Positions 25,951-63,589 of a stretch of 64,000 bases of DNA are shown piece after piece. Numbering within the stretch: the stretch's first letter is position 1; the number at the start of each line of letters is the position of its first letter. The position numbers and the translations under genes were made by a program. Under the pieces are notes generated by a model that saw only the letters and a program-made list of their open reading frames with translations, did no database searches and was not told the DNA's origin. The stretch spans positions 186,001-250,000 of the forward strand of contig NZ_JABXYU010000004.1 of assembly GCF_013394795.1 (NCBI RefSeq), in the 5' to 3' direction. The DNA is from Leptotrichia sp. oral taxon 223 (GTDB lineage Bacteria > Fusobacteriota > Fusobacteriia > Fusobacteriales > Leptotrichiaceae).

Positions 25951-26710
25951 TCTTATCACTTCCTTTCTCTTTATCAATTTCATCGTTTTCCTTCTTTTCA
26001 GAATTTTCATTATAATAAAGCTGTGCGTATATAAAACTTGCTAAAAACATTGTCAAAATCATAACCCATCCTGAACTTATCTTATTTAAAATTGGTAAAA
26101 ATGTAAATGCCATTTTTATAATAAGTGCCAGCAAAACAATTCTTATATATTTAAAATTTTGGCTTAAAGCCATTATTAACATACTGAAAAATATTGAATA
26201 AAGCACAAAATTCATACTTGTCATAAGTGATTCTGGCAATTTTTCACCAAATATCGCTCCAAAAATTGTACCAAAACAGTAGCAAAAATATGGAATTGTA
26301 TTTACTCCCATCATATACCACGCATTTGTTGCCTTTTTCAATGTCAGATATGTTACCGTTTCATCAGTAAGCCCCACACCTACCAGAAATTTCTGAAAAA
26401 TAGGAGTCTTTTCACCAAGCTGTCTAAAAATAACGATATTTAACAATAAATATCTTAAATTTATGAGAGCAATTGATAAAATTACTTCAACTGGAGGCGA
26501 TTTCATCACATAAAGCACCTTTAACAGTAATGAATGAGCCCCTCCTGCATACATTCCAAACGATGTAAGCCCAATCATTGGCAAAATTTGAGAAAAACTT
26601 TTAGCTGAAATCAGTCCAATTGCAACTCCAAAGGGAATATAGGCAATTCCGATTCCAGTACCGTCTTTTAGTCCCTTTAAATAATTTTCGAGTTTTCTTA
26701 TTTGTGCCAT
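25940..26710 (-). CDS. azlC: Branched-chain amino acid exporter large subunit AzlC
   Basis: The 256-residue membrane protein matches AzlC (LIV-E family): GLKDGTGIGIAYIPFGVAIGLIS near the N-terminus, GLTDETVTYLTLKKA near 131, and a string of hydrophobic helices. It acts with AzlD to export branched-chain amino acids. The charged C-terminal tail (SEKKENDEIDKEKGSDK) overlaps the azlD ribosome site. The start follows AAGGAAGG at a somewhat long distance. No Lrp-type regulator is present nearby. Confidence 0.87.
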   Translation of the reverse strand: MAQIRKLENYLKGLKDGTGIGIAYIPFGVAIGLISAKSFSQILPMIGLTSFGMYAGGAHSLLLKVLYVMKSPPVEVILSIALINLRYLLLNIVIFRQLGEKTPIFQKFLVGVGLTDETVTYLTLKKATNAWYMMGVNTIPYFCYCFGTIFGAIFGEKLPESLMTSMNFVLYSIFFSMLIMALSQNFKYIRIVLLALIIKMAFTFLPILNKISSGWVMILTMFLASFIYAQLYYNENSEKKENDEIDKEKGSDKIEL

Positions 26711-26810
26711 TTTTTGTTCTGATTCCTTCCTTATATAGTATTATTCTAACAATTTCAAAACAATTAGTCAAATATATAATATATATTTCTATCATATATA
26801 AAATATATTA

Positions 26811-29800
26811 TTACTTTAATAATCCCCAATTTTTAGCCACACTTCCATTAGCTTTTAACGGAACTTTCTTAAATTTAACCGTATTTTCCATAATTTTTTC
26901 AATTTTTTTCATATATTCCTTAGCAAATTCATCACGAACTTCAAAAATCAGTTCATCGTGAACTTGAAGAAGCATTTTGATATTTTCATCATTTTTAAAT
27001 TCCTCATGAAGTTCAATCATAACTTTTTTTATAATATTTGCTGCTGTTCCCTGAACGACAGTATTTACCGCCATTCTCACAGCCTGTGCCTGTACATTCT
27101 TATTTGTAGCATTAATTCCGCTAATGTATCTTCTCGTACCGTAAAAAGTTTCCACAAAACCGTGAAGTTTAGCCGTTTCTGTCACAATATCCAAAAATTT
27201 TCTGACTCTCGGATATTCCTCAAAATATGTTGTGATATATTGAGAAGCCTCTTGAACTGTAATCCCTAGTTCCTTCGATAGTCCAAACGGAGTTTTTCCA
27301 TACAGAATACTAAAATTAATTACTTTTGCAATACTTCTCTCATGCCGTGAAATCTCATCTTCTTCGGTTTTGAAAAATATCTTTCTTGCCGTCAAGTTAT
27401 GTAAATCCTGATTATCCTGATACGCCTGTACTAAATGCCTATCTTTTGACAATTCAGCCAAAACTCTCAATTCAATTTGTGAATAGTCAAATGAAATCAA
27501 ACTATGTCCTTCTTTTGATACAAAACCTGTACGTATCCTTATTCCATCATCTGTTCTCACAGGAATATTCTGTAAATTTGGATTTGCTGACGAAAGCCGT
27601 CCAGTAGATGTCCCATTTTGGTTAAAAGTCGTATGAATCCTGTCCTCTTTATCCACCAGTTTTGGAATTGGCTCAATGTATGTTGACAATAATTTCTTAT
27701 AAGCCCTGTATTCTAGCAACTTTTTCCCAATCATCCGTTTGTCTTCTGTCAATTCTCCATTGTTTGCAATCATTTCCAGAACTTCCACATTTGTTGAATA
27801 TCCAGTTTTTGTCTTTTTACCTGATGGAATCTGCAATTTTTCAAACAAAACTTCCCCTAATTGTTGTGGCGAATCAATATTAAATTCTCCATCAGCAAGT
27901 TTATAAATATCACTTTGAAGCATATTTATCTTTTCTTCCAGCTCATTCTGAAATTCACTGAAATATCTTTTATCAATTTTTATTCCAGTTTCTTCCATTT
28001 GTGCCAATACTGGTATTAATCGACTTTCCAGCTTATCAAATATATTTAAAAACTGCTCATTTTGTAATCTATTTCTAAAAATTGTTTCCAATTTATAAAT
28101 AAAAAACGTCCTCTTTGATAAAAACTCACAAATCACATCATCGGAAACATCGCTAAAATCCTTCTTTCTTCGTTCCTTCTTAAACTGTTCCTCAAAAGTT
28201 GCAATCTCAACACCAAACTCATCAAGTATTATTTCTTCAATTTCCTGCAAACTTTCTGTCCCAAGTACATATCTTGCAAGCAAAATATCAAAATATTCAG
28301 TACATTTTATTCCGAACCTATCCTCATTTATCCCATAAGTTTTACCGCCAACAGAATATCCAAAATACTCACTTTCCCCATTTTTCATATACTCTTTCAC
28401 ATTATAGGCAATAATTTCTTTCTTGCTCAATAATTTATAAATATTCTCAATATTTTTTTTATTATCTTTTTGCTCATTAGCATTATCACTTAAACTAAAC
28501 AAATTAATCTGTACTCCAGACTCTGCATTTTTTTGATTCCCATTTTGCAAAATATACTGAAGCTCGCTGTCCAAAAGCACAATATTCATTTTTTCATCAC
28601 AAATGGAAAGTCCAAGCATATTTTCAAAAATAGCCACTTTTTTATCCATTTTCTCAATCACAGAATAAGCATTATTCCAACTAATAACTTTTCCATAATT
28701 TTTCTCAAAATACACTTTTTCATCTTTAATTTTCTTAGTTTTTTCAGTTTTCTGATTTTCTAACGCAATCTCTTCTGCCTTTTTCTTCTGGGTCTCATAT
28801 TCTATTGCCAATTTTTCTTTTAAAACTTGAATTTCATCAATTTTTTTGTCTATTTCTGAATTATGTTCGTACTCCACATGCTCATAAAAATGTGAAATTC
28901 CATCAAAAATCGGATTTTTCTTATCATATTCCAATTCCTGCTTTTCAACTTTTTCTCTTTCAAATCTCTCTTTTTCCAATTTTTCTTCAGCGATTTTTTT
29001 ATTTTTTTCTAAAACTAACTTCTCTTTTTCTGTAAGCTCCTTTTGATTTCCACTTTGTAAGAATCTTTCCTTTTCTTCTTCAACAGCTTTAGAAAATCTT
29101 TTAAAATCAAGCTCCTCATAAAGTTTTAAAAGACTGTCAAAATCTTTTTCCTCAAATTTCAATTTATTTTTATCATATTCAATATCAAGTTCTCGCTTCA
29201 CAGTTGCAAGTTCCCGACTTATAAAGGCATTTTCCTTGTCAGTCAGTAATTTTTCCTTCTGTTTCCCTTTTATTTCGTCAATATTTTCATAAATTCCTTC
29301 CAGATTTCCATAAGTTGTAATAAGTTTTACCCCATTTTTAGGCCCAATCCCAGTAACTCCTGGAATCCCATCCGACTTATCCCCCATAAGCCCAAACAAA
29401 TCAGGTATCTTATCAGGTGTAACTCCCAAATATTCAACTACATCTTCATCAGTCTTTATATGTTTAAATGCAGAATTTTTATCCCCTTTTCCAAGCAAGG
29501 CAATGTTAATTTTCCCATCTACAAGCTGTGCCAAATCCTTATCCCCAGTTATTACAAAAACCTCAATCTGCTCATCTTCATCATTAGAAAACTTGGTAGC
29601 AAATGTAGCAATCACATCATCCGCTTCCTGCCCAGCCTTCTTATATTTCGGAATTCTATATCCATCCAACACCTTCATAATAGTATCAATCTGCATAACC
29701 AGTTCTTCAGGCATACTTTCCCTATGTGCCTTATACGTTTCCAGCTCCCCAGTTCTCTCCAACTCGTCCCTTTTCACATCCAGGCAAGCCACCAGATAAT

Positions 29801-32524: not shown

Positions 32525-32690
32525 CCGCATTCCCCCTTATTTAAATTTTAATATTCTTTTTATCATTATATTCTAACCTATTTTTCTTAGAATTTCAAAT
32601 AAAATAAACAAGAAAAAGCGTTTGTAAACTAAAAATAGCCATACTTTATTAATAAAAGTGCAGCCGTTTTTACTATATTAATATTTTAAA

Positions 32691-32714
32691 ATTTACAAAT
32701 TGTGCTATTAAAAT
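32691..32714 (-). repeat. Terminal degenerate repeat of array-2 type
   Basis: This leader-distal repeat is 24 bp. It lacks five bases of the consensus and carries the array 2 variants (ATTGTGC where the other array 1 repeats have AAATGTTC). Confidence 0.85.
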
Positions 32715-33920
32715 TTTGACTCTTACTAATACAAATCACGGAACAGCAAAATTTACAATACAAAATGTTCTATTAAAATGAGGGGCATTTACAACTCGGG
32801 AACATATTAATCCAAATTTACAATACAAAATGTTCTATTAAAATTCTTAATGCCGCCTGTGCATAATTCCGAATGTCCAAATTTACAATACAAAATGTTC
32901 TATTAAAATAAAATATGCAGAATCTTCATTATCACGTTATGAAAAATTTACAATACAAAATGTTCTATTAAAATAATATATTGTTAAAATTTGACAAATT
33001 AAAAAAAGTAATTTACAATACAAAATGTTCTATTAAAATTGTCACAAATGGGTCAAATTGCGCATTTGGTCTTCCATTTACAATACAAAATGTTCTATTA
33101 AAATTTCTCTTTGTAAAAAATGTGATACCATTGTAAACTGATTTACAATACAAAATGTTCTATTAAAATTTAATGTTTCCTGCAATTTACAGAGATTTAA
33201 AGGACATTTACAATACAAAATGTTCTATTAAAATAAATAAAATATACTTCAAAATTTATATCACTTCCAAATTTACAATACAAAATGTTCTATTAAAATT
33301 TAGATCAAGAAAATCATCCGTTATTCCTCTATCGTATTTACAATACAAAATGTTCTATTAAAATCACCTTCAAGATTGTTTGTTCCATTTATGTATAAAT
33401 ATTTACAATACAAAATGTTCTATTAAAATGAACGAATTACTAGGTAGGGTAAATCTTGCTTACAAATTTACAATACAAAATGTTCTATTAAAATTTTTGA
33501 TACAAAAACCACACTCCGCTTTGGTTATATATTTACAATACAAAATGTTCTATTAAAATACATAACTTAAAATATATCAAGGAGATGAGATAAAAATTTA
33601 CAATACAAAATGTTCTATTAAAATTAGCATTGAGTTTCTTTATAATGTTTTTTCTTTCAAATTTACAATACAAAATGTTCTATTAAAATGTTTGATGCCG
33701 TAATGTTCTCAACCTTGTCATAATGATTTACAATACAAAATGTTCTATTAAAATAACGAGACAATAGTGACTATTGCAAAGCCAAATGAGATTTACAATA
33801 CAAAATGTTCTATTAAAATTACGACTAAAAAAATAAACCACCATCGTTTATAAATATTTACAATACAAAATGTTCTATTAAAATAGCTATATATAATTGT
33901 AGGCAATATTATTTTAATGA

Positions 33921-34180
33921 ATTTACAATACAAAATGTTCTATTAAAATTATTCACAGATTTGGAAGATGTGAAACGATACAGGGATTTACAATACAAAA
34001 TGTTCTATTAAAATAAATTTATTTTAGTATTTCCAATTTTCATAAATTTAATTTACAATACAAAATGTTCTATTAAAATTATTCACAGATTTGGAAGATG
34101 TGAAACGATACAGGGATTTACAATACAAAATGTTCTATTAAAATAAATTTATTTTAGTATTTCCAATTTTCATAAATTTA
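33921..34180 (-). repeat. Tandem duplication of two repeat-spacer units
   Basis: 33921-34050 (130 bp, two repeats and two spacers) is repeated exactly at 34051-34180, at the leader-proximal end of array 1. This indicates recombination between repeats, since new acquisitions would differ. Confidence 0.95.
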
Positions 34181-34209
34181 ATTTACAATACAAAATGTTC
34201 TATTAAAAT

Positions 34210-34412: not shown

Positions 34413-34691
34413 TTAAAAAAAATTTGAGGTTTTGTCGTCTTCTAATCCCCAAAATTCTTTTTCTAGCCATTTTTCTTGACGTGATTTGAAAATTATTAAT
34501 GAGTCTTTGTCTTTGCGAATGTATCGTTTTAGTTCGAGATTTCATTTTTTTAATAAAACTGGGGTTATTTCTCCTTCAAATACTGATTTTTGAACATTTG
34601 TTAAGTACTTTTTGCAAATTTTAAATACATTTCGAGAAATTCTTGGGCCATTGTCATCTGTTAGGATGTCATAAACTAAAATTATATACAT
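34413..34691 (-). pseudogene. cas2: Cas2 with in-frame TGA
   Basis: Cas2 is the dimeric scaffold of the Cas1-Cas2 integrase that inserts new spacers. The frame starts one base after cas1 ends, MYIILVYDILTDDNGPRISR, with the usual first-strand Asp, and reaches LKK at codon 49; codon 50 (34542-34544) is TGA. The frame then continues without any other stop: NLELKRYIRKDKDSLIIFK to residue 92, the normal Cas2 length. A Trp codon TGG changed to TGA is the simplest origin. Without readthrough only 49 residues are made, lacking the second half of the ferredoxin fold, so adaptation should fail. The frame itself shows no other decay, so the change is recent or the stop is read through. Confidence 0.85.
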
Positions 34692-34692
34692 A

Positions 34693-35685
34693 CTACCACC
34701 ATATTTTAAATCCTTCGTATTTTTTATCTTCTAGCAAATGTTTTACTAATTTGTATGCTTCTAAACGCATTAGATGCCGGTAAGAAACTTTTCGGTTTAA
34801 ATCTCTGTGCTTTATTGAGGTTTCTAATCTTTCGTTAAAAGTTTTTAAAATTAATTTCTGTGCATTTTCTTTCATATAAAAATAATTTGAATCTTTGAAA
34901 AAATCTTTTTCTGTTATCATTTTTTTATTTAAAAGAGAAAAAATAATTCTATCTGCCAAAAGAGGCTTAAATACCTCGGCAATATCAAGCGATAATGAAA
35001 ATCTTCTTTCTCCTACACTATGTAAATAACTTATTGTAGGATTCAACTGACTAACATATATTTCAGACAGACAGGCAGTGTAAACTAATGTGTTCAAAAA
35101 AGAAATCATAGTATTTATCATATTATCAGGCGGTCTTTTTACTCTTTTTTCAAAATCAATTTCTTGATTAACAATTGTATTCCATGCGGTATAATAAGTA
35201 CGTCTGATACTTCCTTCAATTCCCATTAACTCATTAATTTCGTTTGTTCTAAAAATTCCTTTTTTCAGTGCCTTAATTTCTGTTATTACGGATTCTAAAT
35301 CTTTTCCTCGTTCCTGATAATATCTTAAATTTCGCAAAATATTTGTGCTTGCTGCATCTATTATTAATTGTGCTAATTCAATTCTTTTGGCATTGTCTGT
35401 ATAATTTTCAACTTGCTTTACGAATAGTTTTCCAGAAACATTTGATTCTTTTGGATAAAATGTTCCAGTGTAAAAACCATAATAATTAAAAATATGAACA
35501 GGAATTTTATTCTGTGCCAAGTAATTTAAACATTTTGTATTTAATGAAACTTCTCCAAATAAGTAAATATCTCTTGTAACTTCTATTTTTATATCTTTAA
35601 AACGTCCATCTGGCGCTGTTATTCTTATAACATTATCTTTACGTTTTAATTCACCGCTGGAAAAAATAAAATAACTTTCTGCCAT
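34693..35685 (-). CDS. cas1: CRISPR integrase Cas1 (type I-B)
   Basis: The 330-residue Cas1 is the catalytic subunit of spacer integration. The N-terminal beta domain starts MAESYFIFSSGELKRKDNVI; the C-terminal helical domain holds the metal site: GIEGSIRRTYYTAW (Glu), PTISYLHSVGERRFSLSLDIAEVFKP (His and Asp). Length is typical for I-B. I use ATG 35685 after GAGAGG, not the ATG at 35733, which adds 16 residues that overlap the space before cas4. It ends IWW just before cas2. The protein itself looks intact, so any adaptation defect would come from cas2. Confidence 0.95.
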   Translation of the reverse strand: MAESYFIFSSGELKRKDNVIRITAPDGRFKDIKIEVTRDIYLFGEVSLNTKCLNYLAQNKIPVHIFNYYGFYTGTFYPKESNVSGKLFVKQVENYTDNAKRIELAQLIIDAASTNILRNLRYYQERGKDLESVITEIKALKKGIFRTNEINELMGIEGSIRRTYYTAWNTIVNQEIDFEKRVKRPPDNMINTMISFLNTLVYTACLSEIYVSQLNPTISYLHSVGERRFSLSLDIAEVFKPLLADRIIFSLLNKKMITEKDFFKDSNYFYMKENAQKLILKTFNERLETSIKHRDLNRKVSYRHLMRLEAYKLVKHLLEDKKYEGFKIWW

Positions 35686-35720
35686 TTTATACCTCTCTTT
35701 ATGATATTTTTTTATTAATT

Positions 35721-36209
35721 TTAAATGTAACAAAATTCATAGTATGCACATTTTTTACAAATTTTATCATTAATTACAGGAGGAGCTTTTTCATTTTTAC
35801 AAATTTTTTCAATATCAATTAAAATTTCCTTCAATGTATTTTCGTCCTCTTTTGTCAAAATTATTTCCTTACGTTCCCTAATTACAGGATAATCAATGAT
35901 TCCTTTTTCAATTTTTATTCCACGTCGCTTTAAAAAATAAATATAGTATTTCACTTGCCAAATTGCCGCCTCTTCTACAGCCTTGCTTTTTTTTACTTCG
36001 TGAACGACTTGCCATTTACGGATAAAATCAATATTTACGGTTTCTTCTATCATAACTTGTTTAGTTTCCAAATTGTAACTGTTTTCATCAATTAATTTTC
36101 CTAGTTGAACATTTTCATTTTCTTCTTCAAGATTAATATTTTTGGATTGACACCACAATTTACGTTTACATACAAAATAATAATTTATCATAAGTCCTGT
36201 TATTTTCAT
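35721..36209 (-). CDS. cas4: CRISPR-associated exonuclease Cas4
   Basis: The 162-residue Cas4 is a RecB-like nuclease that trims prespacers and selects the PAM during adaptation. It starts MKITGLMINYYFVCKRKLWC, with the first iron-sulfur Cys near residue 14; the PD-(D/E)XK core shows KIEKGIIDYPVIRERKEI; three C-terminal cysteines lie in ICKKCAYYEFCYI. Length is that of small Cas4 proteins of types I-B and I-C. It sits 35 bases before cas1 and 18 after cas3 in the operon. Confidence 0.92.
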   Translation of the reverse strand: MKITGLMINYYFVCKRKLWCQSKNINLEEENENVQLGKLIDENSYNLETKQVMIEETVNIDFIRKWQVVHEVKKSKAVEEAAIWQVKYYIYFLKRRGIKIEKGIIDYPVIRERKEIILTKEDENTLKEILIDIEKICKNEKAPPVINDKICKKCAYYEFCYI

Positions 36210-36227: not shown

Positions 36228-38627
36228 TTAAAAAGTATTATCTTCAAAAAAATCTTGATTTTTCATTTTTACTTCAAATCCTTTTTCATATGAATAATCA
36301 CAATCTAAAATAATCAATGTTTCATAATCATTTATTTCCATTTTTTCTACTTGTTCAGGAGAAATATCATCAAATTCATATTCAGGAATTGCTACTTTAA
36401 ATTGATTTATTTCTCGTCTTGCTTCTATTTTTTCACTCCTTAAATTTTTCCGCTCTTTTTCATTCAATCCCTTTGCTTTCTTCTGCAGGATTTCAATATT
36501 TTTCTTTATTTCTTTTTCATTTTGCTGATAAATAATTTTTGGAATTATATCTTTTGAAGCAATATTTCTAAAAATTTTCTGTACTTCTGATTTTGTTTTT
36601 TCATACTCCACTATATAATTTTTCAAAGCATAAATATTTTTTACTAATTTTCCATAATACTCTGTATCTTTTAAATTTTCAGTAGAATAAACCTCATCAA
36701 TCAATTCCAATTTTTCCTTTTCTGTAAGTAATCCGTCAATGTCTATCAGTGCTTCTTTAGATTTTTGATGAATTTCTTTATCTATAACTGCTTTGGAACT
36801 TTTTATTCCGGAACACTCTTCTGTAAAAACATAGCAGTTATATTTTTCATCCAAAATCTCTCTATTTCTGTAACATCTTCCCATTCTCTGAAAAAGTCCA
36901 TTCAAATCTGATAATTCTGTAACGAGAATATCAAAATCCAAATCAAGAGATGCTTCAACTACTTGTGTACCAATCCAGATTCCATTTTCACAAATATTTT
37001 TTAATTCTCTTTCCTTTTTCACATTTTCCTTAAATCTTTTAGGATTGGCAAATTCAGAAATTTCTTTTTCTTTTTTAGCTCTGTCCTTTTTTATAAATCG
37101 GCTATGAAGCAGATTCAATTCTTTACATTCTATTCCTAATTTTTTTAAATCTTCATATATTTGTTTGGATTTTTTGACAGTGTTGCAGACAACTAAAATT
37201 TTATTATCTTTATAATTTTCTTTTATAAATTTAGCATTAATAACTTCTTTTAATATTTTCAAATTATGTCTTTTCTTATCATTTATAAAAGGTTCTCTAG
37301 TCTCAAATTCTATTTCTTCCTTTTTTAACAAATCTGTGATAATTCCTGGTAAAGTGGCAGTCATTATAGCGAATTTCCCACCAAAATCTGTAATATATTT
37401 TAGTCCATATATCAAATAAGCTAATAAATCCGTTGAATACATCTGAATTTCATCAATAACTACTTTAGAATAAGATAGTGTAGCAACTTTTAATTCAAAT
37501 CCTGGTGCTCTGAAAACAAAATCAAAAAGCTGGTCTATTGTGCAGACTGTCAATGGTAAAGATAGCTGCTTTGTTTTATCCATATATATAAACAGCTCAT
37601 CATTATCCATCTTTTCTGGATTATTTTTTTCCTTCTTTTTTATATCTTCTATATATATTTCTCTAAAATCTGAATGTAGCAGTCCTATTCTATTTTCCAG
37701 TTTTTCAATTACAATCTGATTTTTCACTCTGTCAAAAATTGCATTAATTGCTACTCTTAACGGCAATGTAAAAAAGCCCTTATTATTACCTATCCAAAGT
37801 AGTCCCGCTTCAGTCTTTCCATATCCTGTCTGTGCTACCACTACAACATTTTTATTTTGATTATGAATCATAAACTTCTGCAACTCATTCCAGTCATTCT
37901 CAGGATTATCCCTTTTCAATATATTTTTTAGAAAAGCATTCATTTTCTCTTCAAGAAAATCATTTTTTTCCTCAACTGGAATATATGAACTTGCAGCATA
38001 GTCTATTTTATTCAGTAATCCTTTTAACATTACATATTTTTGAAAAGTTTCAGAACCTTCTACATCAGAATAGACTCTACTTCCTATTTCATAAAATAAA
38101 GAGCTTAATTGTGCTAATTCAACTTTTCCATCTTCCCAATTAAAAATTGCTTTTCTATCTTTATAATTCTCAGTATTTTTAAAATATTCAAAATAAATAT
38201 TTTCCAGAATTTTTAATTCCTTTGAAAAATTTTTAACTTCATTGTTCATTGAATATATCTCATCAGATAAATCACTGTCATTTATTTCCATTAAATTTCT
38301 TTCATGATGTAAAGCTACAGAATGAGCTAAAATTTTTATTTCATCTTCACTAAAATGATGATATTCAATTAAAATATCATCATTTATAAATGAAGTACTG
38401 AGTATCCCATGAGGAATTTCCCCACTTTGCTTTTCACCAGACAGTTTGCTCTGAAATTTCTGATTTATTTTCCCTAAATCATGATAGATACACGCAAGCA
38501 ATAACAGCTTTTTTTCAACATTTAATTTAGGATAGACCATAAAAATTTTCATAAAATTATTAAACAGATTTTCTGTGTGTCTTAATATTGTTTCGCCACT
38601 AGATTTAGCTAAAAAATTATTCTTCAT
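36228..38627 (-). CDS. cas3: CRISPR effector nuclease-helicase Cas3
   Basis: The 799-residue Cas3 shreds DNA marked by Cascade. The HD nuclease domain at the N-terminus has ACIYHDLGKINQKFQ (HD at 49-50) with LRHTENL before it and HSVALHHERN later. The helicase has Walker A VAQTGYGKTEAG near 265, DEIQ box VVIDEIQMYS near 395, MTATLP near 425 and the motif VI segment GLFQRMGRCYRNR near 590. Both domains are fused in one chain, as usual for type I-B. No interrupting stop or shift is visible, so the effector half of the system is intact here. Confidence 0.95.
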   Translation of the reverse strand: MKNNFLAKSSGETILRHTENLFNNFMKIFMVYPKLNVEKKLLLLACIYHDLGKINQKFQSKLSGEKQSGEIPHGILSTSFINDDILIEYHHFSEDEIKILAHSVALHHERNLMEINDSDLSDEIYSMNNEVKNFSKELKILENIYFEYFKNTENYKDRKAIFNWEDGKVELAQLSSLFYEIGSRVYSDVEGSETFQKYVMLKGLLNKIDYAASSYIPVEEKNDFLEEKMNAFLKNILKRDNPENDWNELQKFMIHNQNKNVVVVAQTGYGKTEAGLLWIGNNKGFFTLPLRVAINAIFDRVKNQIVIEKLENRIGLLHSDFREIYIEDIKKKEKNNPEKMDNDELFIYMDKTKQLSLPLTVCTIDQLFDFVFRAPGFELKVATLSYSKVVIDEIQMYSTDLLAYLIYGLKYITDFGGKFAIMTATLPGIITDLLKKEEIEFETREPFINDKKRHNLKILKEVINAKFIKENYKDNKILVVCNTVKKSKQIYEDLKKLGIECKELNLLHSRFIKKDRAKKEKEISEFANPKRFKENVKKERELKNICENGIWIGTQVVEASLDLDFDILVTELSDLNGLFQRMGRCYRNREILDEKYNCYVFTEECSGIKSSKAVIDKEIHQKSKEALIDIDGLLTEKEKLELIDEVYSTENLKDTEYYGKLVKNIYALKNYIVEYEKTKSEVQKIFRNIASKDIIPKIIYQQNEKEIKKNIEILQKKAKGLNEKERKNLRSEKIEARREINQFKVAIPEYEFDDISPEQVEKMEINDYETLIILDCDYSYEKGFEVKMKNQDFFEDNTF

Positions 38628-38660: not shown

Positions 38661-40324
<1,664 letters not shown>

Positions 40325-40326
40325 AA

Positions 40327-42096
40327 TTATTCATTCCCTTCTTTTTTATCTGTCTTATTTTCATTCTTACTTTTATCTTCACCTAATAAACCTAATAAAA
40401 ATCCATGTCCTAATGTCTGAAAATTTTCATCATTTAAAAGTGCTTTAGCAAAAAGTGAGCTGATATTTTTTCCTGCATAAGCATGAGCTGAAATCAGAGC
40501 ATCCATAAACATATCAACATTATTAATTCTCAAAGCATTCTGAAGTCTGTATAACAGACTTCCAATCTTTTTATCATTTCCACTTTTTCTTATATATTCT
40601 TCCCTAAAAATCATTGCATCTCTTCTTATATAGAAAATATCTTTTTCTGTTAATTCTTCTGACGTTTTCTTATTTTCCTTTTTTTCAATTATTTCTTGCT
40701 TATCCATTTTCTTCAACCTCCTGATATAATCTAAATTTATTTTTAGTAAATCTTCTATATTTTTTAATTTACAATACAATTTTGTTTTTGAAATTTTATA
40801 GTAACATAATTTGTTTATTAGCGAGAATAAATTCTGATTATTTAACAATTCTGTTATTGTCGTATCGTAAATATTAAAATATCTTTTATCAATTAAATAC
40901 CATTTATCTAATAAATCATCTAATTTTTCTTTATTTTCAGATAAAAGCTTTAAAATATTTCGTGATAACAAAGTAAACTTATAGTGTCCTTCCTCAAACT
41001 TTACAATCTGAATATCTGATAATTCATATTTTGTATTGTCTTTTTCCTTCTTAATTTCCTTTAATAAATTTTTATACAGATTTATATTCTTTTCTTCTGA
41101 CTCATCTTCTAAAATATTATATGCAATTCCATTGTTTATATTACATAATTGATCTATATTATGATTTGCGTTTACAAATATTCCTTTATCGGCTCCATAT
41201 ATAAATCCTGCCGGAACGCAGGAATAAACCAATGTAACCAAAGGAGTTACTGCAATATCATTTACAAAATTCCAGACATGTGATGGTTTTCTACTCACAT
41301 CAAAACCTGTGTCATTTAAAAATCCTAATGTATTTTTATAATCCTTCATCTGCATATTTGAAATTACACATTTATATTTAAATTTAGATTTGTCAGCATT
41401 AACATATTCTAATGCAGGTTCTACAAAATATGATTTATATTCGTCATAAATATCTTTAGCGGCATTTGCCCTATTTAAAAATGATACACTGCTCCAAGCA
41501 TTGTTTATTATTACATAAGCTATATTTTTGGCAGCAAGATAATTTTTTACATTTCCTTCCTTATCAGTTATTTTCCTTTTAAAAAAATCAATAATCTCCT
41601 TCATAGTCTTAAGATAATTTTTTACATTATCATTTGAAATTTCAGCAATATTTTCTTTAGGTTCTTTTATTTTTTTTAATTCCTTTTCCAGTCCTAAAAT
41701 TTTATTAGTTCCATTTTTTTCTATGAAATCATATGCCTTTTTATAACTTTCAGATTTGATTTTAGCTTTAAAGAATGTAATTTTATCATTTATCATTTTT
41801 AATTCATTAATACTTCTAATTTTTTCTCCATTCTCCTCAAATTCATCAATATATTTCTCAAATTCTAAAATTTTACCATAAGTCAATGTTTTTCCATATC
41901 TTTTTATAAAAAAATTAAAGTATTTATACTCGAAGTTTTCCAAAACTTTTGGAGAAAATCTTATTAAGCGATTTTTATCATCTATTTCCAGTTCTCCATT
42001 ATTCCTTGCTTCTTCTCCAAGAATATTTATAAATCCTAATAACCCAGCATTAAATAATCAATCCTTCAATTTCAATTCTATTTTTTCATCACTCAT
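40327..42096 (-). pseudogene. cas8b1: Cascade large subunit Cas8b1/Cst1 with in-frame TGA at codon 13
   Basis: Cas8b1 recognises the PAM and recruits Cas3. The full frame from ATG 42096 (GGAAGAAAA upstream) is 590 codons: MSDEKIELKLKD, then TGA (42058-42060), then LFNAGLLGFINILGEE and on to the stop at 40327. Cst1 proteins have a conserved DWLYNAG-type start, so the TGA replaces the expected Trp. Beyond it the frame is open for 577 codons with normal codon use. A TTG at 41943 could restart, but would lose 51 residues, including the conserved NAGLLGF segment, and has no clear ribosome site. Either the gene has just been lost by a G-to-A change, or TGA is bypassed. Confidence 0.85.
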
Positions 42097-42120: not shown

Positions 42121-42903
42121 TTATTTCAATTTTTCCAGCATTCCGAATCCACTTCCAGTTATGCTCCCAATCCCTGCATTATAAATATAATCCAAAATGT
42201 AACTTTTTCCTTCCAATTTCAATATACCAACTGAAGTATCCAAAAATTTACCATTAAATTTATTTTCATAATTTAAAGTTTTATCTTTTTTAGTTTTATC
42301 ATAATGCTTAACAACAACCTTTTTAGTCTGACTTGAATCTATTATCAAATCTTCAATATCTTTTTTTACATATTCTCCTTTTAATTCTTTAAGTTTTAAA
42401 TAAAGATTTCTTTTTATAATTTTAGAAAATTTATCATCTGTCCCTGTATAATAGGTGTCTTTTTTAGTTTCTTGATCATGATCACGGCAAACTATTGGAG
42501 ACATAGTTTTAACAATTAATATGTTATCCTTTATAATTTGCCTTGGTAAAATCGAAATATTAGTAACCACAACCTTTGTCTCTTCTGAAATTTTTATCTC
42601 TTTAAACCTGATACCTGAAAAAGCATTATAAATGTTTAAACTATCAACATTATCATATGCCGAAAGGTTAACGATAATCTTTTTTTCCTCTCCTAAAAAT
42701 TTAACTTTATCCTTTTCAAATTTCACATTTCGAAAATAAGCTGACCATGTATAATTTTTCTGTTTTGCAGATCCAAAAAATTCTTCAAAAATTTCATTAT
42801 CACATTTTTTCAGTCCTGTTTTTAAGACGCATAAAATTTTTGATCTCCAATTTATAGGAAAGCTGCTACCTTCTGTTAATTCAATATTAATCTTAAATCT
42901 CAT
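42121..42903 (-). CDS. cas6: CRISPR RNA endonuclease Cas6
   Basis: The 260-residue RAMP protein cuts the repeat RNA to make crRNAs. It is the first gene of the cas operon. N-terminal MRFKINIELTEGSSFPINWR begins the first RAMP fold; the C-terminal glycine-rich loop GIGSITGSGFGMLEKLK is the family hallmark. A catalytic His candidate lies in the CRDHDQE segment or in VVVKHYDK; I cannot tell which. Length is usual for Cas6 of I-B. Its 24-base gap to cas8b1 contains the ribosome site. Confidence 0.93.
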   Translation of the reverse strand: MRFKINIELTEGSSFPINWRSKILCVLKTGLKKCDNEIFEEFFGSAKQKNYTWSAYFRNVKFEKDKVKFLGEEKKIIVNLSAYDNVDSLNIYNAFSGIRFKEIKISEETKVVVTNISILPRQIIKDNILIVKTMSPIVCRDHDQETKKDTYYTGTDDKFSKIIKRNLYLKLKELKGEYVKKDIEDLIIDSSQTKKVVVKHYDKTKKDKTLNYENKFNGKFLDTSVGILKLEGKSYILDYIYNAGIGSITGSGFGMLEKLK

Positions 42904-43239: not shown

Positions 43240-43464
43240 ATTTTAATAGCACAATTTGTATTGTAAATCTTTTATACTTTCTGTTATACCATTTTCATAA
43301 CGTGATTTTAATAGCACAATTTGTATTGTAAATGTATTCTTTTATTTCTGTCAAGCATGTAAGCCTCGACATTTTAATAGCACAATTTGTATTGTAAATA
43401 CCTTATCAGAAATATGTAAATTTAGGTTACTTTGAATTTTAATAGCACAATTTGTATTGTAAAT
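43240..43464 (+). CRISPR. CRISPR array 2, type I-B, 4 repeats and 3 spacers
   Basis: Four identical 29-bp repeats start at 43240, 43305, 43371 and 43436. They begin ATTTTAATAGCACAAT and end TTGTATTGTAAAT, differing from the array 1 repeat at two positions. Spacers are 36, 37 and 36 bp. The leader is on the left, so the array is transcribed on the plus strand, divergent from the cas operon. The first spacer (43269-43304) overlaps a spacer of array 1 by 13 nt. Confidence 0.97.
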
Positions 43465-55921: not shown

Positions 55922-56245
55922 TTATAAAAATAATTTCACAAGTTTTTTCTTGTTTTCCTTTATAGTTTCATCGCTTTCCTCAAACACTCCGAATCTGTCG
56001 AATCCAACAGTTATCATTAAAGCAATAAAATTTGTACCTATCAGAAGTATTAAATCTTCTGTCTTCGACTTCTCCTCTATGGAATCAAATATTTCTTTGT
56101 TGCTTTCGTTTTTCAGCTTGCTCCGCAATAGGTTTAAATTCTGCCTTCTTTGATAACCTCTTAATTTCAGTGTGATTACGGAATTTAGAAATATCAGTGC
56201 AAACATTATGATTACAAATTTCCTACTTCTGTGATATATTTTCAT
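55922..56245 (-). CDS. Phage membrane protein, possible second holin or spanin-like
   Basis: The 107-residue protein has two hydrophobic segments (FVIIMFALIFLNSVITL near 10 and LILLIGTNFIALMITVGF near 65) joined by a charged loop (KLKNESNKEIFDSIEEKSKTED). It overlaps the holin gene by 23 bases, so translation is coupled. I start at ATG 56245, with AGAGGG nine bases upstream; earlier ATGs at 56254 and 56269 lie on or before that site. Its place after the holin suggests a lysis role (anti-holin or spanin), but no motif proves it. It is the last gene before a strong terminator. Confidence 0.6.
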   Translation of the reverse strand: MKIYHRSRKFVIIMFALIFLNSVITLKLRGYQRRQNLNLLRSKLKNESNKEIFDSIEEKSKTEDLILLIGTNFIALMITVGFDRFGVFEESDETIKENKKKLVKLFL

Positions 56246-56594
56246 CTTTATCATCCCTCTTCTTGACAAAACCGAGCTTTTCCAGCAGAAGTTCCAAAAA
56301 TCCTGTGCTTATGCCATATCTTTTTTTGTTTATCGTCTCAATAATTGCTTCTCCAAAAAAACCAAATAACGGACTAAAGGGATATAAATATCCCGCTTTA
56401 AAATGCCCGATAACTTTATTTAAAGATAGTGTAATTGACATAGTCATTCCTGCTACAACAAATCTTTTTAAATACGGTTTTACAGGTTTATTGTCCACAA
56501 TTTTTTGTGCCACTACTCCAAATAGCACACCACTAAAAAATAGTATCAGGAAAAGTCCGTGATTGTCTATTATTACTTTTAAATCCTCTATCAT
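56223..56594 (-). CDS. Phage holin candidate
   Basis: The 123-residue protein has about three hydrophobic stretches (LFLILFFSGVLFGVVAQ, RFVVAGMTMSITLSLN, LFGFFGEAIIET) and a charged C-terminal tail (KKRDDKDENISQK), the general layout of LydA-type and other small phage holins. Holins make the pores that let endolysin reach peptidoglycan at the end of infection. It lies four genes after two cell-wall enzyme genes in the same late operon. Family membership is by layout only. Confidence 0.65.
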   Translation of the reverse strand: MIEDLKVIIDNHGLFLILFFSGVLFGVVAQKIVDNKPVKPYLKRFVVAGMTMSITLSLNKVIGHFKAGYLYPFSPLFGFFGEAIIETINKKRYGISTGFLELLLEKLGFVKKRDDKDENISQK

Positions 56595-56606
56595 TAATTA
56601 TGCTCC

Positions 56607-56924
56607 TTATATCCCTATTGCTGTTTTTTCTTCCCCAAGTATTTTGTGTATTATTTCATCCACATTTACAGTTTTTTCAAGTGCTTCAGCACCTTTTAGT
56701 AATAAATCTTCGGTAAATTTCTCAATGTCATCAGGGATATATGGATTGTTTATATCCTGTGCCTTTTTTACAAAGTCCTTAAACTTTCCAAAAAAGTTGT
56801 TTTTAACAGCTTCCAGTTTTTCTATTCCTTTTTTAGCCCCAAAGATTATTTCCTTTTCTAAAACTTCTTTTCTTGTAAAATCTACCAGCATTCCTATTAA
56901 AATTACTTGTAATTGTTTATCCAT
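56607..56924 (-). CDS. Phage hypothetical protein
   Basis: The 105-residue protein has no recognised domain. It is mostly helical and charged, without a signal or membrane segment (MDKQLQVILIGMLVDFTRKEV, then FGKFKDFVKKAQDINNPYIP). It sits between holin and endolysin genes, with 12- and 16-base gaps, so it is part of the lysis block by position. A good GGAGA site is present. Function unknown. Confidence 0.6.
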   Translation of the reverse strand: MDKQLQVILIGMLVDFTRKEVLEKEIIFGAKKGIEKLEAVKNNFFGKFKDFVKKAQDINNPYIPDDIEKFTEDLLLKGAEALEKTVNVDEIIHKILGEEKTAIGI

Positions 56925-56940
56925 TTTTATCGTCTCCTTT

Positions 56941-57366
56941 TTATCTTATTTCAATGTGCGGATAATCTTTAAATTTTTTCCAGTCTCCGCCCCATTCGAT
57001 ATTTATTTCCATTTTCTCTGCAACAGCTTTTAAATGATCTGCAACTTCCCGGTATTTCTTCTCGTTATCCCAATCAATTTTTCCCGGAATTGTCGGATCA
57101 TAAATTGCAAAATCAACCGCATGTCCGTAACCGTCACTCTTAGCTTGATGATTTGACTTAGCTCTATAACCATCACAGTTTGTTACAATTTTTCCAGGTT
57201 TTGTCCTTCCTTGCCTATACAGCTCCCTCTGATATTCCGCGGTTCTCAATCCTTGAACTAGCATAAAGTCATGAGGGCTATCCACTATCGCTCTTTTGAA
57301 CAGTTCTGAAAGCTTGGGATGTACTCCTTCCAATCTGCTTAAACTTAGTTTACTTAATACATACAT
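56941..57366 (-). CDS. Endolysin, M15 family peptidase
   Basis: The 141-residue enzyme matches phage L-alanyl-D-glutamate or VanY-type peptidases that cut peptidoglycan cross-bridges. The zinc motif SxHxxGxAxDF appears as SNHQAKSDGYGHAVDFAIYD near 70-88, with MLVQGLRTAEYQRELYRQGR before it and the last ligand in YPHIEIR at the end. Length is typical of a single-domain phage endolysin without a binding domain. It starts one base before the next gene's end, in tight order with the other lysis genes. Confidence 0.88.
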   Translation of the reverse strand: MYVLSKLSLSRLEGVHPKLSELFKRAIVDSPHDFMLVQGLRTAEYQRELYRQGRTKPGKIVTNCDGYRAKSNHQAKSDGYGHAVDFAIYDPTIPGKIDWDNEKKYREVADHLKAVAEKMEINIEWGGDWKKFKDYPHIEIR

Positions 57367-57852
57367 TTAAATCACTTCCTTTTCTTTTATTAATTCCATA
57401 TCTTTTAAATACTTAAATAATTTTGAGGGATTGAACTGATAGCCAACCCTGTCTTTTAGAGATTTGCATTTATAAGTCAATGTAAATTGCAGGGCATAAT
57501 CTATCGCATTTAAACAAAATTCACTGCAAAAATATTTGTCAGCATCTTGTACCTTGTCAGCATAGAAAAATTGCCCTAATATTCCAAGATAATCATAACC
57601 TTTACCTTGTGCTGTTTTAAAAAATTCTATGACATCTTTAGCTTCTACGTTGTTGGGCAGCTCATAAATATCCATGTTTTTTTGATATTCAAATTTTCTT
57701 GTTCTAACTCCACCAGGATTAGATAAGAACACCTGTCCGTCATAGATAAATTCAGTGTGTGAATATTTACCTAGTGTCCATAGTGCTATCAAATGCCCTA
57801 TCAGTCTCTTGGGCTTATGGAAACTGATATAAAGTTTGTTTTTTTCAAGCAT
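57367..57852 (-). CDS. Permuted papain-like (YiiX/C92-type) phage cell-wall enzyme
   Basis: The 161-residue protein resembles YiiX/YaeF-type permuted NlpC/P60 enzymes: His comes first in LGKYSHTEFIYDG (near 30) and the Cys later in KYFCSEFCLNAIDYAL (near 108), the reverse of the usual order. Between them lies GKGYDYLGILGQFF, a YDxxGxxG motif. Such enzymes hydrolyse amide bonds in peptidoglycan or lipids; phage versions occur in lysis or tail modules. It is directly upstream of the M15 endolysin, one base apart. Which one is the main lysin is unclear. Confidence 0.75.
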   Translation of the reverse strand: MLEKNKLYISFHKPKRLIGHLIALWTLGKYSHTEFIYDGQVFLSNPGGVRTRKFEYQKNMDIYELPNNVEAKDVIEFFKTAQGKGYDYLGILGQFFYADKVQDADKYFCSEFCLNAIDYALQFTLTYKCKSLKDRVGYQFNPSKLFKYLKDMELIKEKEVI

Positions 57853-57903
57853 AAATACCTCCTTTATTCGTGTGATTAATCGTGCGACTTTCTCATGATT
57901 AAT

Positions 57904-58611
57904 CTACATATTTTTATACGCTTTTTCATATCTGTCTTTAGCGTCATACTCTTTCAACTCTGCGTCCGTTAAATTCTCTAAATTATGAGATAACAGTGTT
58001 TCCGTTGTCATAGCTTTAGTAGTATGTAATTGCATTATATTTGCCATTTTCATCATATCCTGCAATGTTAAATTAACATACTTTTCGGTGTTATCTTTAG
58101 TGTAAAATTTCCAGTTCTCAAATTCTGTCTTTTTCATTGCTTGACACATGACGACAATTCTAGTTAAGTTTGACTGGTCTATGCTCCTGTTATTCTGCAA
58201 ATATTTCACGCCACCTACTTCAAATTCAAACGGAGCTACGTCGTATGCAAGTCTTAACTCATAGAGTTCATTTTTTATCTGTTCTATGCGTTTTTCCCTA
58301 TTTAACTTGATAGTGTTATTTTCAACATACTCGCATTCAGATAGTTCAACCGTTTTAATTTTATTATTTTCTATGAGTTCATTATCTGCAAGGGTATATT
58401 TCCCAACGGCATACAGTTCTTCTTTTGTCATTTCTCTGATGGTTCCTGCAGCTAAAATCGGATTTTGAAATTCTGTATTGGAGCAGACATGCCTCGTGCT
58501 ATCCCAGTCGGGATAAAATAAAACAGGACTATCTTTAAAATCTTCCAAGCTTGTCGCAACAGGATGTGCGATAACCTGTAAATTATTTTTATCGTATATA
58601 TTTATTATCAT
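57904..58611 (-). CDS. Phage tail protein with DUF4376-like C-terminus (tail fibre assembly)
   Basis: The 235-residue protein has a beta-rich N-terminal part (MIINIYDKNNLQVIAHPVATSLEDF) and from about 105 a helical domain like DUF4376: KRIEQIKNELYELRLAYDVAPFEFEVGGVKYLQNNRSIDQSN. This family is found next to tail-fibre genes and is taken to help fibre assembly. The GGAGGT site sets the start. It follows the tail-fibre gene and the opposite-strand segment at 58661-58997, a normal place for a fibre chaperone. Confidence 0.75.
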   Translation of the reverse strand: MIINIYDKNNLQVIAHPVATSLEDFKDSPVLFYPDWDSTRHVCSNTEFQNPILAAGTIREMTKEELYAVGKYTLADNELIENNKIKTVELSECEYVENNTIKLNREKRIEQIKNELYELRLAYDVAPFEFEVGGVKYLQNNRSIDQSNLTRIVVMCQAMKKTEFENWKFYTKDNTEKYVNLTLQDMMKMANIMQLHTTKAMTTETLLSHNLENLTDAELKEYDAKDRYEKAYKNM

Positions 58612-58660
58612 AATTTACCTCCTTATTATTTTTTATTTTTTTTGTTCTCTTAATCTGTGT

Positions 58661-58675
58661 AAATTGGAAAATTTA
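58661..58675 (+). repeat. Left inverted repeat of possible fibre inversion segment
   Basis: AAATTGGAAAATTTA, exact 15-bp match in inverted orientation to 59303-59317. Confidence 0.6.
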
Positions 58676-58997
58676 TTCAAAATTACAGAATATAAGAACT
58701 TAGCTTTAACTAACGTGAATCACGGAAATGCAAATGGGTATACTATAGGAAATAATCGCTATGTTCCATTTTCACGACGTTTCCCCCGTGAGTTCAAACG
58801 GAAATACTACAATTTGCAAACTTCCTGTTTCTCCAATTTCAGCATTCGAAGGTACGGCAGCAATCATTCAGAATAATCTTCGTGCTGAAAGATTTTCAGT
58901 CAATAAAAACGGAGAAGTCAAAGTCGTCGGAGATGGAACTATAACAGCAAATATTAAATATAGTTTCAGCTTTAGCTTTCCTTTTGCTATTAGTTAA
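58661..58997 (+). pseudogene. Alternative tail-fibre C-terminal segment, opposite strand, frameshifted
   Basis: This headless coding segment reads KLENLFKITEYKNLALTNVNHGNANG and continues, after a shift, as VSSNGNTTICK, SVNKNGEVKVVG and IKYSFSFSFPFAIS to TAA at 58997. The frame change falls at a five-C run (58783-58787); four Cs would keep one frame of about 110 residues. It has no start codon of its own. The opening AAT-six bases-AAATTGGAAAATTTA (58652-58675) matches, in the same frame, the codons for N..KLENL in the tail-fibre gene, and the two stops overlap in TTAA (58994-58997). Inversion between the repeats would replace the fibre C-terminus with this one, as in Mu-type G segments. No invertase gene is in the window. 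Confidence 0.7.
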
Positions 58998-59989
58998 TAC
59001 CCGATAGCAGTCCAGAAAAATCCAGCTTTTTCGCCACCGCCGCCACGTTGTCGCATTACTTGCAGTAAGAATTTTTCTTTAGTGATATTTGACGAGACAA
59101 AAGTAACTTCCAAACTTTCATCTGAATAGTTGTAAATCCCTGAAATTTGGACATTAACACATTTCTGTTTAAAAGTTTTTGGGAAATTAATATTTTTAGT
59201 AATAGATGCCCCAGGTGTACTTGAAAGTCCTTCAAAATAGTTTTCTCCCCACTGGATTATTAGACCATCTGGAAATTCAATATAATTATTTCCCATTGTG
59301 TGTAAATTTTCCAATTTCTTTGCATTTTGATAGTCCGAAATTGGAATAAATTTTGACCCCTCAAAATAAGTTAAATTATTTTCAACAGTCGGAACAACCA
59401 TCTGTTTATTTGCCTTATCATAGTACGCTATTCTTACTTTTTTAATTCCCGCATCCTGCAATAATCCCCCATATCCGTCTGTACCCATCCAGTTCATTTT
59501 TTCTTCGTGCTTGATATAATCCTGTAAAGTTGACAATGTGACCAAAGTAGATGGATTAATTGCCATTGTCGCCCCATTTGAATTGTTTATTTCAGTAATC
59601 AAATCAATCTCGACTGTGGCCAGATTAATTCCGTTTGTTGCCGGCATTGTATCAGCCTCTGACGCTCTTGTTACACTGTACAGTATTTCGTTCCCCGAGT
59701 CTATTTTTCCGTACAGTCCTATTGTTTCTATTTTATATGCACTGTTAACAGACGCATTTGTAAATATCGCATTCAGCCTTACTTTAGTACCTTCCTGGCT
59801 TACTCTCGACAGATTGACTGTCTGCTTTATTTCGTCAATATTTATGAGCTTTGATACATCAGTAGTATCACCGTACACCTTACTTGATGTTACCATTCTA
59901 GTAAAACTGATTTGCTTGTTATTTCCAAGAGCATTTGCTATCAGCGAACGACCGTTATCCGTTACTGTCGTATCTCTAAAAATTGCCAT
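58994..59989 (-). CDS. Phage tail fibre / tail collar protein
   Basis: The 331-residue protein has a conserved N-terminal attachment region (MAIFRDTTVTDNGRSLIANALG, then NDEIKQTVNL-type strands) typical of Gram-positive and fusobacterial tail-fibre proteins, a middle collar-like domain and a C-terminal receptor-binding part: GLIIQWGENYFEG, FPKTFKQKC and the ending GFFWTAIGY. The last 107 residues, after KLENL (codons at 59303-59317), are replaced in a reverse-strand segment, see 58661-58997. It sits right after the YmfQ-like gene. The fibre recognises the host surface. Confidence 0.85.
   Translation of the reverse strand: MAIFRDTTVTDNGRSLIANALGNNKQISFTRMVTSSKVYGDTTDVSKLINIDEIKQTVNLSRVSQEGTKVRLNAIFTNASVNSAYKIETIGLYGKIDSGNEILYSVTRASEADTMPATNGINLATVEIDLITEINNSNGATMAINPSTLVTLSTLQDYIKHEEKMNWMGTDGYGGLLQDAGIKKVRIAYYDKANKQMVVPTVENNLTYFEGSKFIPISDYQNAKKLENLHTMGNNYIEFPDGLIIQWGENYFEGLSSTPGASITKNINFPKTFKQKCVNVQISGIYNYSDESLEVTFVSSNITKEKFLLQVMRQRGGGGEKAGFFWTAIGY
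59303..59317 (-). repeat. Right inverted repeat of possible fibre inversion segment
   Basis: TAAATTTTCCAATTT on the plus strand, the reverse complement of 58661-58675. It encodes KLENL within the tail-fibre gene. Confidence 0.6.
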
Positions 59990-59992
59990 TTT

Positions 59993-60616
59993 TTAACCTC
60001 CTATCACATATTTTTTACTGTATATAAATCCTGAAGTGGCAAATATTTTAAATACCGCATCAGGTAATTTTGCCCTTATTTCATATTTCATGTAATTTAT
60101 TACCCCGTTTGTTATGTATATCCTGTTTTCAGTTTTCGGAGTGAGTATATTAATACTATTAAATCCTAAATTTGCAGGCAATATTGTCTTTAGCATGCTG
60201 TTCAGTTCGTCATATTTTTTCGCATCGTCAAACTTCGTAGTAATTCTAAGCTCATATGCGTTAAAATTGGGTCTCAGTTCATAGTTTCCTGCTCCGCAAA
60301 GCTGGTCCATTCTGTTTACAAGTACACGCCACGTATATGGAATTTGGTCGTTCCAGTATGTTAAAACTCTAAAAATTCTAATCTCTAACGTGTCATTTTC
60401 ATATCTGTGCAGTCCCAGCATTCCCTCAAACTTGCTTATCCCATCCTCATCACAATACTGTATGAACTGATTATTAAATACCTTTTTAAATAAGTTCCAC
60501 AAGATTTTAAACTCGGGTTCCTCACTTTGCATTATCCGTCTAATTTCCCTGTACTCCTGCATAAAACTAGGCAGGTATTCCAGCAAGTTCACGTTTATGA
60601 TTTCTAAAAACCTCAT
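59993..60616 (-). CDS. Phage tail protein, YmfQ/DUF2313 family
   Basis: The 207-residue protein matches the YmfQ family (Mu gp48-like), which links the baseplate wedge to the fibre: LLEYLPSFMQEYREIRRIMQSEE at the start, FEGMLGLHRYENDTLEIRIFRV near 65, and ILPANLGF near 145. I use ATG 60616, which overlaps the gpJ stop as ATGA and has GGGGAGG upstream; the ATG at 60634 overlaps that site. It is the gene between baseplate J and the tail fibre, the standard order in contractile phages. Confidence 0.85.
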   Translation of the reverse strand: MRFLEIINVNLLEYLPSFMQEYREIRRIMQSEEPEFKILWNLFKKVFNNQFIQYCDEDGISKFEGMLGLHRYENDTLEIRIFRVLTYWNDQIPYTWRVLVNRMDQLCGAGNYELRPNFNAYELRITTKFDDAKKYDELNSMLKTILPANLGFNSINILTPKTENRIYITNGVINYMKYEIRAKLPDAVFKIFATSGFIYSKKYVIGG

Positions 60617-61698
60617 ACTGTAATACCTCCCCATACAGGAATTTCATATTCAGTAAGTTGTAAATTATTAGAACTCCCATTTATTGTCGTGTTCTGAATA
60701 TCTAAAATTCCATTTACGTCAAGTATTTTTGCTTCTATCCTTGATACTCTTACAACAAGATTATTACTCACTTTTTCATTTTTTAATGCCCAGGTTTTTC
60801 TAAGCTCCAACAAGTAATTCTTTATTACTTCCTCAACTTTTAATTTTACGAGCGACCACGAGAAGTTAGGCTCAAAAGAAATAGTAGTTGTGATATTTAC
60901 TGGAACTTTTGTTGTTCCTTGAACTGTTACAACATGCCCTATCGGAGCAACGCCCAAACCTTGTGCATCTTTTGTTGGATCTATAATATCTTGTACTTTT
61001 TTAATTAAGGTAGTGCTCGCTTGATTGAAATCGCTATCCAGTATTGTTAATAAGACAGTTCTGCCTCCATTCCATACTGGAGTTACCTTAACAGCTCCGA
61101 CACCTTCTATTTCATGCACTTTTAACTTGTAATCAGAAATATTCCCACCATAAGCCTTCATGTTAAAACTGTCAAAGTATCTTTTTCTGAGTACTTCTGT
61201 TCCCTCTTCATCTTGTCCTGGAATTAAAAGTTCTGTTATTTCAGCACGTCCTAGATTACTTATATAGTCAATTGGTATTATTTTACCAGTTTTTGCATTC
61301 CCAATCCTTCCTGGACTTTCACACTCCAGTTCATATTCATAAAGATTTGTAGCGGTATTGTGCTGGATAAATTTTACTGCCGTGTAATTCAAGTCTTCCA
61401 AACTGAAACGACTCCCTAAAGGTATCTCAATATCAAAAATACCTTTTAAAATAGCCTTACTTGCCTTGTATGGAGATATTCCACGTTCAGAAGCTCTACG
61501 TATTAAGTTTTCTCTACTTGCTGTATCTCCAAATGTTTCCTTTATGAAATCCTGAAGCACAAAATACATGCTTTCCAGCTCCATTGCCGCTGGAGCCAAA
61601 GCGTCCCATATTACAGAGCCTTCCCGCTTATCCAAGCTGTTCGGAATCCTTGCAAGCATTCTTCCCATTATTTTTTCATAAGTCACAACTTCAAACAT
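60613..61698 (-). CDS. Baseplate J-like protein
   Basis: The 361-residue protein is a gp47/J-type baseplate wedge subunit of contractile tails: NSLDKREGSVIWDALAPAAMELE near 20, FGDTASRENLIRRASERGISP near 55, then GRIGNAKTGKI near 133, GQDEEGTEVLRKRYFDSFN near 165 and the VKVTPVWNGGRTV segment near 210. These match PBSX XkdT and P2 J. It follows XkdS with a GGAGG site. It closes with TGA, overlapping the next start. Confidence 0.92.
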   Translation of the reverse strand: MFEVVTYEKIMGRMLARIPNSLDKREGSVIWDALAPAAMELESMYFVLQDFIKETFGDTASRENLIRRASERGISPYKASKAILKGIFDIEIPLGSRFSLEDLNYTAVKFIQHNTATNLYEYELECESPGRIGNAKTGKIIPIDYISNLGRAEITELLIPGQDEEGTEVLRKRYFDSFNMKAYGGNISDYKLKVHEIEGVGAVKVTPVWNGGRTVLLTILDSDFNQASTTLIKKVQDIIDPTKDAQGLGVAPIGHVVTVQGTTKVPVNITTTISFEPNFSWSLVKLKVEEVIKNYLLELRKTWALKNEKVSNNLVVRVSRIEAKILDVNGILDIQNTTINGSSNNLQLTEYEIPVWGGITV

Positions 61699-61712
61699 AT
61701 TATCCTCCTTCC

Positions 61713-63587: not shown

Positions 63588-63589
63588 TT

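Follow-up and report, generated by a model that had tools for sequence, protein, structure and literature searches.

Premature stop codons in cas8b1 and cas2 of a Leptotrichia type I-B CRISPR-Cas locus with spacers matching resident prophages

Gene content of the locus and the two interrupted frames

The window, that is the whole stretch of 64,000 nucleotides of Leptotrichia DNA that was analysed, sits on contig C4 of a 2.58-Mb genome in four contigs (G000) and contains a set of cas genes with two CRISPR arrays (Table 1). Most of what a type I-B system requires could be identified with profile models. Cas7 (Cst2/DevR) matched TIGR02585 with 226.8 bits (cut-off 72.75) and Cas5 (Cas5t/Cas5b) matched TIGR01895 with 99.4 bits (cut-off 96.7), while TIGR01587, TIGR01596, TIGR01877, TIGR00372 and TIGR03641, all above their cut-offs, gave the Cas3 helicase and HD parts, Cas6, Cas4 and the type I-B Cas1. 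The cas genes share ≈83–99% protein identity with those of the relative G001. An intact large subunit and an intact Cas2, which are also required, were not found, as each of the two genes carries an in-frame TGA. The locus is a degraded member of type I-B (Cst2/Cas5t-type).

The large subunit scored above the cut-off of the Pfam domain Cas_CXXC_CXXC, whereas none of the NCBIfam large-subunit models reached its cut-off and only a sub-threshold match to Cas8a1/Csx8 was seen. The name Cst1/Cas8b1 is thus a putative assignment from operon position, relatives and the Pfam domain. A search of solved structures with the large subunit as query gave no match, and a scan of genome contigs returned one distant MAG and nothing else.

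The cas8b1 gene forms a single frame of 590 codons, counting the final stop, with one internal stop at codon 13, flanked by LKLKD and LFNAGLLGF. The first-pass annotation had described this frame as clean apart from the lone TGA, and its coordinates and flanking residues were borne out. It had also taken the TGA to replace a conserved Trp, and the relatives agree: the 14 other loci, all with TGG at the aligned codon, come from 13 other Fusobacteriota genomes, with identities down to ≈37%, and share the motif [D/N]W[L/Q][F/Y/K]N[A/V/S]G around the Trp. They represent all full-length loci found in the phylum, the truncated carrier in G033, in which the site is missing, having been left out. Had the relatives lacked the Trp and started downstream, this reading would have been refuted, but every one of them keeps it, and the two closest (96% identical) use the same ATG and have no stop anywhere in the frame. 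A single base separates TGG from TGA. No second or intact copy of cas8b1 could be identified in the genome.

Beyond the TGA, cas8b1 has a dN/dS of 0.11 against the nearest relative, G010, and the comparison between the intact genes of G010 and G001 gave a pN/pS of 0.10. The remainder of the gene is therefore under ordinary constraint, so that Cas8b1 was either lost very recently or is compensated for in part. A TAA also lies in the middle of cas8b1 in G076, another genome of the Fusobacteriota (L155, G076:C2:190434-192074), and of the 15 genomes in which cas8b1 was matched 2 have a broken frame.

A further start lies within cas8b1. The block CAGGAGGTTGAAGAAAATG contains a Shine-Dalgarno sequence and the ATG at 40707, which opens a 126-codon frame. 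Every relative examined has an equivalent ATG behind a purine-rich stretch for ribosome binding, and the close ones have AGGAGG itself. Type I-B systems are known to translate Cas11b from within cas8b (PMC11899642, PMC11096372, PMC13199841). The predicted Cas11b starts 3' of the TGA and, judging from this arrangement, should survive the cas8b1 stop. The end of cas8b1 lies two bases ahead of the cas7 start, and translation of Cas11b would carry ribosomes to that end.

In cas2 the frame downstream of the TGA is clean, and compared with G010 the gene differs by the stop and one synonymous change and nothing more. Together with the ordinary constraint on cas8b1, this near-unchanged sequence shows both losses to be recent. 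Recency alone cannot distinguish between natural loss, loss selected in culture and a base error. The cas2 stop, the internal Cas11b start and the prophage-matching spacers described below were absent from the first-pass annotation.

Among 41 non-overlapping genes common to the window and G010 (13,384 residues, mean identity 95.8%, overlapping ORFs removed), cas8b1 and cas2 alone are interrupted, and the same pair was found against G001 (27 genes). The cas operon accounts for 21% of the residues compared, and by our own arithmetic the chance of both stops falling there is ≈0.04. Such clustering suggests, but does not prove, that selection on the locus was relaxed or reversed. Other stop-bearing matches in the window (e.g. 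26578-26958) were shadow ORFs opposite longer genes, which vanished once overlapping ORFs were removed.

Substitute systems were sought in the genome with three markers, and among these none came to light: Cas1 is encoded by a single gene, no Cas13a was seen and Csm1 did not exceed its cut-off. The Csm1 match that was seen (33.8 bits against a cut-off of 170) covered a terminal fragment and was judged unrelated.

Table 1. Features of the CRISPR-Cas locus, in window coordinates.
Feature	Position	Strand	Basis or remarks
CRISPR array 1	32687..34209	-	23 full repeats (32751-34209) and a variant repeat at the low-coordinate, leader-distal end
Spacer A1.16	33170..33205	-	Own chromosome C1:943056-943091, PAM CCT, mismatches at positions 13 and 28 alone
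Spacer A1.10	33560..33595	-	4-mismatch match, PAM CCA, same prophage as A1.02 target
Duplicated leader-proximal spacer pair A1.01/A1.02 = A1.03/A1.04	34015..34180	-	Array 1
Spacer A1.02 (second copy 33950-33985)	34080..34115	-	Own chromosome C1:201666-201701, PAM CCT, one mismatch, position 2
cas2, interrupted at codon 50	34413..34691	-	Comparison with relatives
Premature TGA in cas2	34542..34544	-	Relatives TTA/CTA/CTT (Leu); comparison with relatives
cas1 (type I-B), intact	34693..35733	-	Profile matches, comparison with relatives
cas4, intact	35721..36209	-	Profile matches, comparison with relatives
cas3 (HD + helicase), intact	36228..38627	-	Profile matches, comparison with relatives
cas5 (Cas5t type), intact	38661..39425	-	Profile matches, comparison with relatives
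cas7 (Cst2/DevR), intact	39428..40324	-	Profile matches, comparison with relatives
Predicted Cas11b small subunit (126 aa), internal ATG downstream of TGA	40327..40707	-	Internal start conserved in relatives
Internal ribosome-binding block CAGGAGGTTGAAGAAAATG (+6 nt) for predicted Cas11b	40699..40723	-	Conservation in relatives
cas8b1 (large subunit) frame, interrupted at codon 13	40327..42096	-	Pfam Cas_CXXC_CXXC 45.2 bits (cut-off 21)
Premature TGA in cas8b1	42058..42060	-	TGG (Trp) in 14/14 other loci; alignment with relatives
cas6, intact	42121..42903	-	Profile matches, comparison with relatives
CRISPR array 2, upstream of cas6	43240..43464	+	4 repeats, 3 spacers

Arrays, PAM and spacers matching the cell's own prophages

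Array 1 has 22 spacers between its full repeats, two of which are a tandem duplication of two others. Its strand was assigned from the form of the repeat, the side of the PAM and the distal variant repeat. Protospacers with at most five mismatches could be identified in related genomes for 13 distinct spacers, and 5'-CCN (CCA, CCT, CCG) adjoins 10 of them. The PAM is thus probably CCN, in line with characterised Cas8b1 systems, whose PAMs are rich in pyrimidines; for one type I-B1 system a seed of 7 nt and the PAM YYD have been published (PMC13199841). The frequency of CCN among the matched spacers indicates that the system worked when they were acquired, with PAM-selected uptake until fairly recently. 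Spacer A1.05 resembles a repeated chromosomal element that has many copies in several genomes of the genus (L030, L131, L137; 5–6 mismatches, no CCN PAM).

Two different spacers of array 1 also closely match the chromosome of the cell itself. The target of A1.16 is perfectly matched at positions 1–12, leaving the seed intact, and lies in a phage anti-repressor gene, with terminase and portal-like genes close by. Both its CCT and its intact seed fit the published type I-B1 seed and PAM rules (PMC13199841). The target of A1.02 lies in a prophage whose genes include integrase, RecT and RecE-like ones, and here the mismatch in the seed may weaken targeting. The genome therefore combines a disrupted cas gene with an own-genome spacer match at a correct PAM, two features of naturally inactivated, self-targeting CRISPR-Cas systems. 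From PAM and seed, the A1.16 site at least should be attacked if a type I-B Cascade with Cas3 were active.

The right end of the window (55922-64000) holds phage tail-type genes (Baseplate J, Mu Gp48-like, Gp53-like tail fibre and YqbQ-like) that are part of a prophage or tailocin.

Probable inactivation of the system and other readings of the stops

With a probability of roughly 0.8, we take the locus to be a type I-B system that two point nonsense mutations have recently inactivated, in a cell that tolerates the prophages its spacers target. The stop in place of Trp13 in cas8b1 would remove recognition of both target and PAM, and thereby interference, while the stop in place of Leu50 in cas2 would remove spacer acquisition. 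The other cas genes are all open, so that Cas6 would still process crRNA, and a Cas5-Cas7-Cas11b crRNP might form because Cas11b has its own ribosome-binding site in cas8b1 past the stop. Such a particle, having no Cas8b, could presumably not find PAM-bearing DNA. Without interference the cell would tolerate at least one chromosomal prophage with a near-perfect, correct-PAM target of its own spacer. The targets themselves are there, and their tolerance probably comes through the loss of Cas8b. The loss of immunity may have come before or after the arrival of the prophages, and either could be the cause of the other.

A prophage target in the same genome as its matching spacer fits a dead interference module, but a prophage-encoded anti-CRISPR could account for it as well, holding self-targeting in check with the stops being incidental. 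Near their regulatory regions the targeted prophages do have HTH regulators and small genes that are unassigned, and self-targeting in the presence of active systems plus Acrs is known (PMC10810201). The early stop in cas8b1 nevertheless suffices by itself, no known Acr was noticed, and we regard protection by an anti-CRISPR as unlikely.

Rather improbable is that errors of base calling or assembly gave rise to one or both stops in a system that is intact. The assembly, in four contigs, is unclosed, and leaves room for such errors. Two independent substitution errors, both creating stops and both in one operon, would however be unlikely; none of the 39 other shared genes of the window has a frameshift or a stop, and the targeted prophages are in keeping with real inactivity of the system.

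The cas8b1 stop might also separate functions, in that a Cas5-Cas6-Cas7-Cas11b crRNP and the spacer memory would be kept without attack on DNA. Cas8b would then be skipped, with Cas11b and the coupling to cas7 retained, and rare readthrough could give traces of Cas8b. We consider this quite improbable.

Still more doubtful is readthrough of the cas8b1 TGA by a near-cognate Trp-tRNA, a suppressor tRNA or selenocysteine insertion, which would give a low, throttled level of Cas8b. The remaining frame is clean and normally constrained, as this would require, and near-cognate reading of UGA happens at a low level in bacteria. UGA followed by U, on the other hand, is an efficient stop in E. coli, and RNA folding 3' of the TGA is weakly above that of shuffled sequences (z -2.0). 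A covariance model found 46 tRNA genes in the genome, to which ARAGORN assigned standard anticodons, with a single Trp tRNA (CCA) and no UCA anticodon among its calls. No tRNA-Sec scored over the gathering score, the best hit (42.9 bits, threshold 47) being on a serine tRNA. The RF2 gene prfB lies in the window (12040-13098) and is intact, with one uninterrupted frame of 352 codons. An in-frame UGA serves autoregulatory frameshifting in the prfB of many bacteria; this prfB is without one of that kind. No TGA was seen at Trp positions in the 39 other shared genes of the window, and the sole other TGA, that of cas2, is at a Leu site, where a UGA read as Trp would not restore the consensus. The standard tRNAs, the intact prfB and the Leu site of the cas2 stop thus argue against recoding. 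Exotic reading of the stop codon was rejected, the tRNA, tRNA-Sec and RF2 searches being negative or normal; readthrough above background is unlikely, and the locus does not point to a new genetic code or mechanism.

Least probable of all is a downstream restart that yields a functional, N-terminally shortened Cas8b, as the next ordinary in-frame start, a TTG at 41943 (codon 52), does open a frame of 538 aa but has no visible Shine-Dalgarno sequence ahead of it and would lose the conserved W..NAG region, which is kept in all compared intact relatives. The earlier claim that no full-length large subunit would be made, barring readthrough or restart, therefore holds, with neither escape supported by the tRNA set, the RF2 gene or the search for starts.

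Relation to known type I-B systems and inactivated loci

Recent knockout by two point mutations would make the locus a clear natural inactivation of a type I-B system caught early: the genes are clean apart from the two stops, the array has spacers with CCN PAMs, and resident prophages are present that its spacers should attack. The strain and its intact relatives form a testable pair, with which one could ask whether immunity was lost before or after lysogeny, and also whether crRNAs and a Cas11b made from the internal start are still present without Cas8b.

In gene content and order, and in having arrays downstream of cas2 and upstream of cas6, the locus resembles the type I-B systems of Leptotrichia (e.g. 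L. buccalis; PMC6914741), a genus in which self-targeting spacers have been described (PMC6914741). Those systems are described with full gene sets, whereas a stop codon interrupts both cas8b1 and cas2 in the present locus. The type I-B1 Cascade of Thermotoga maritima (PMC13199841) likewise has a Cas8b1 large subunit, a cryptic internal Cas11 start within cas8b1 and a pyrimidine-rich PAM, YYD there and probably CCN here. Its large subunit is intact, while the one described here should not be made.

The locus is most likely an example of an already known kind of event, with no new mechanism. Mutations that inactivate cas genes alongside self-targeting spacers are a described outcome (PMC6990116), and the naturally inactivated CRISPR-Cas systems reviewed there, such as that of L. 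acidophilus NCFM, combine loss of a cas function with spacers against the cell's own chromosome, as this locus probably does. Unlike those cases, the present one involves two point nonsense mutations and not deletion of a cassette, and the targets are prophages.
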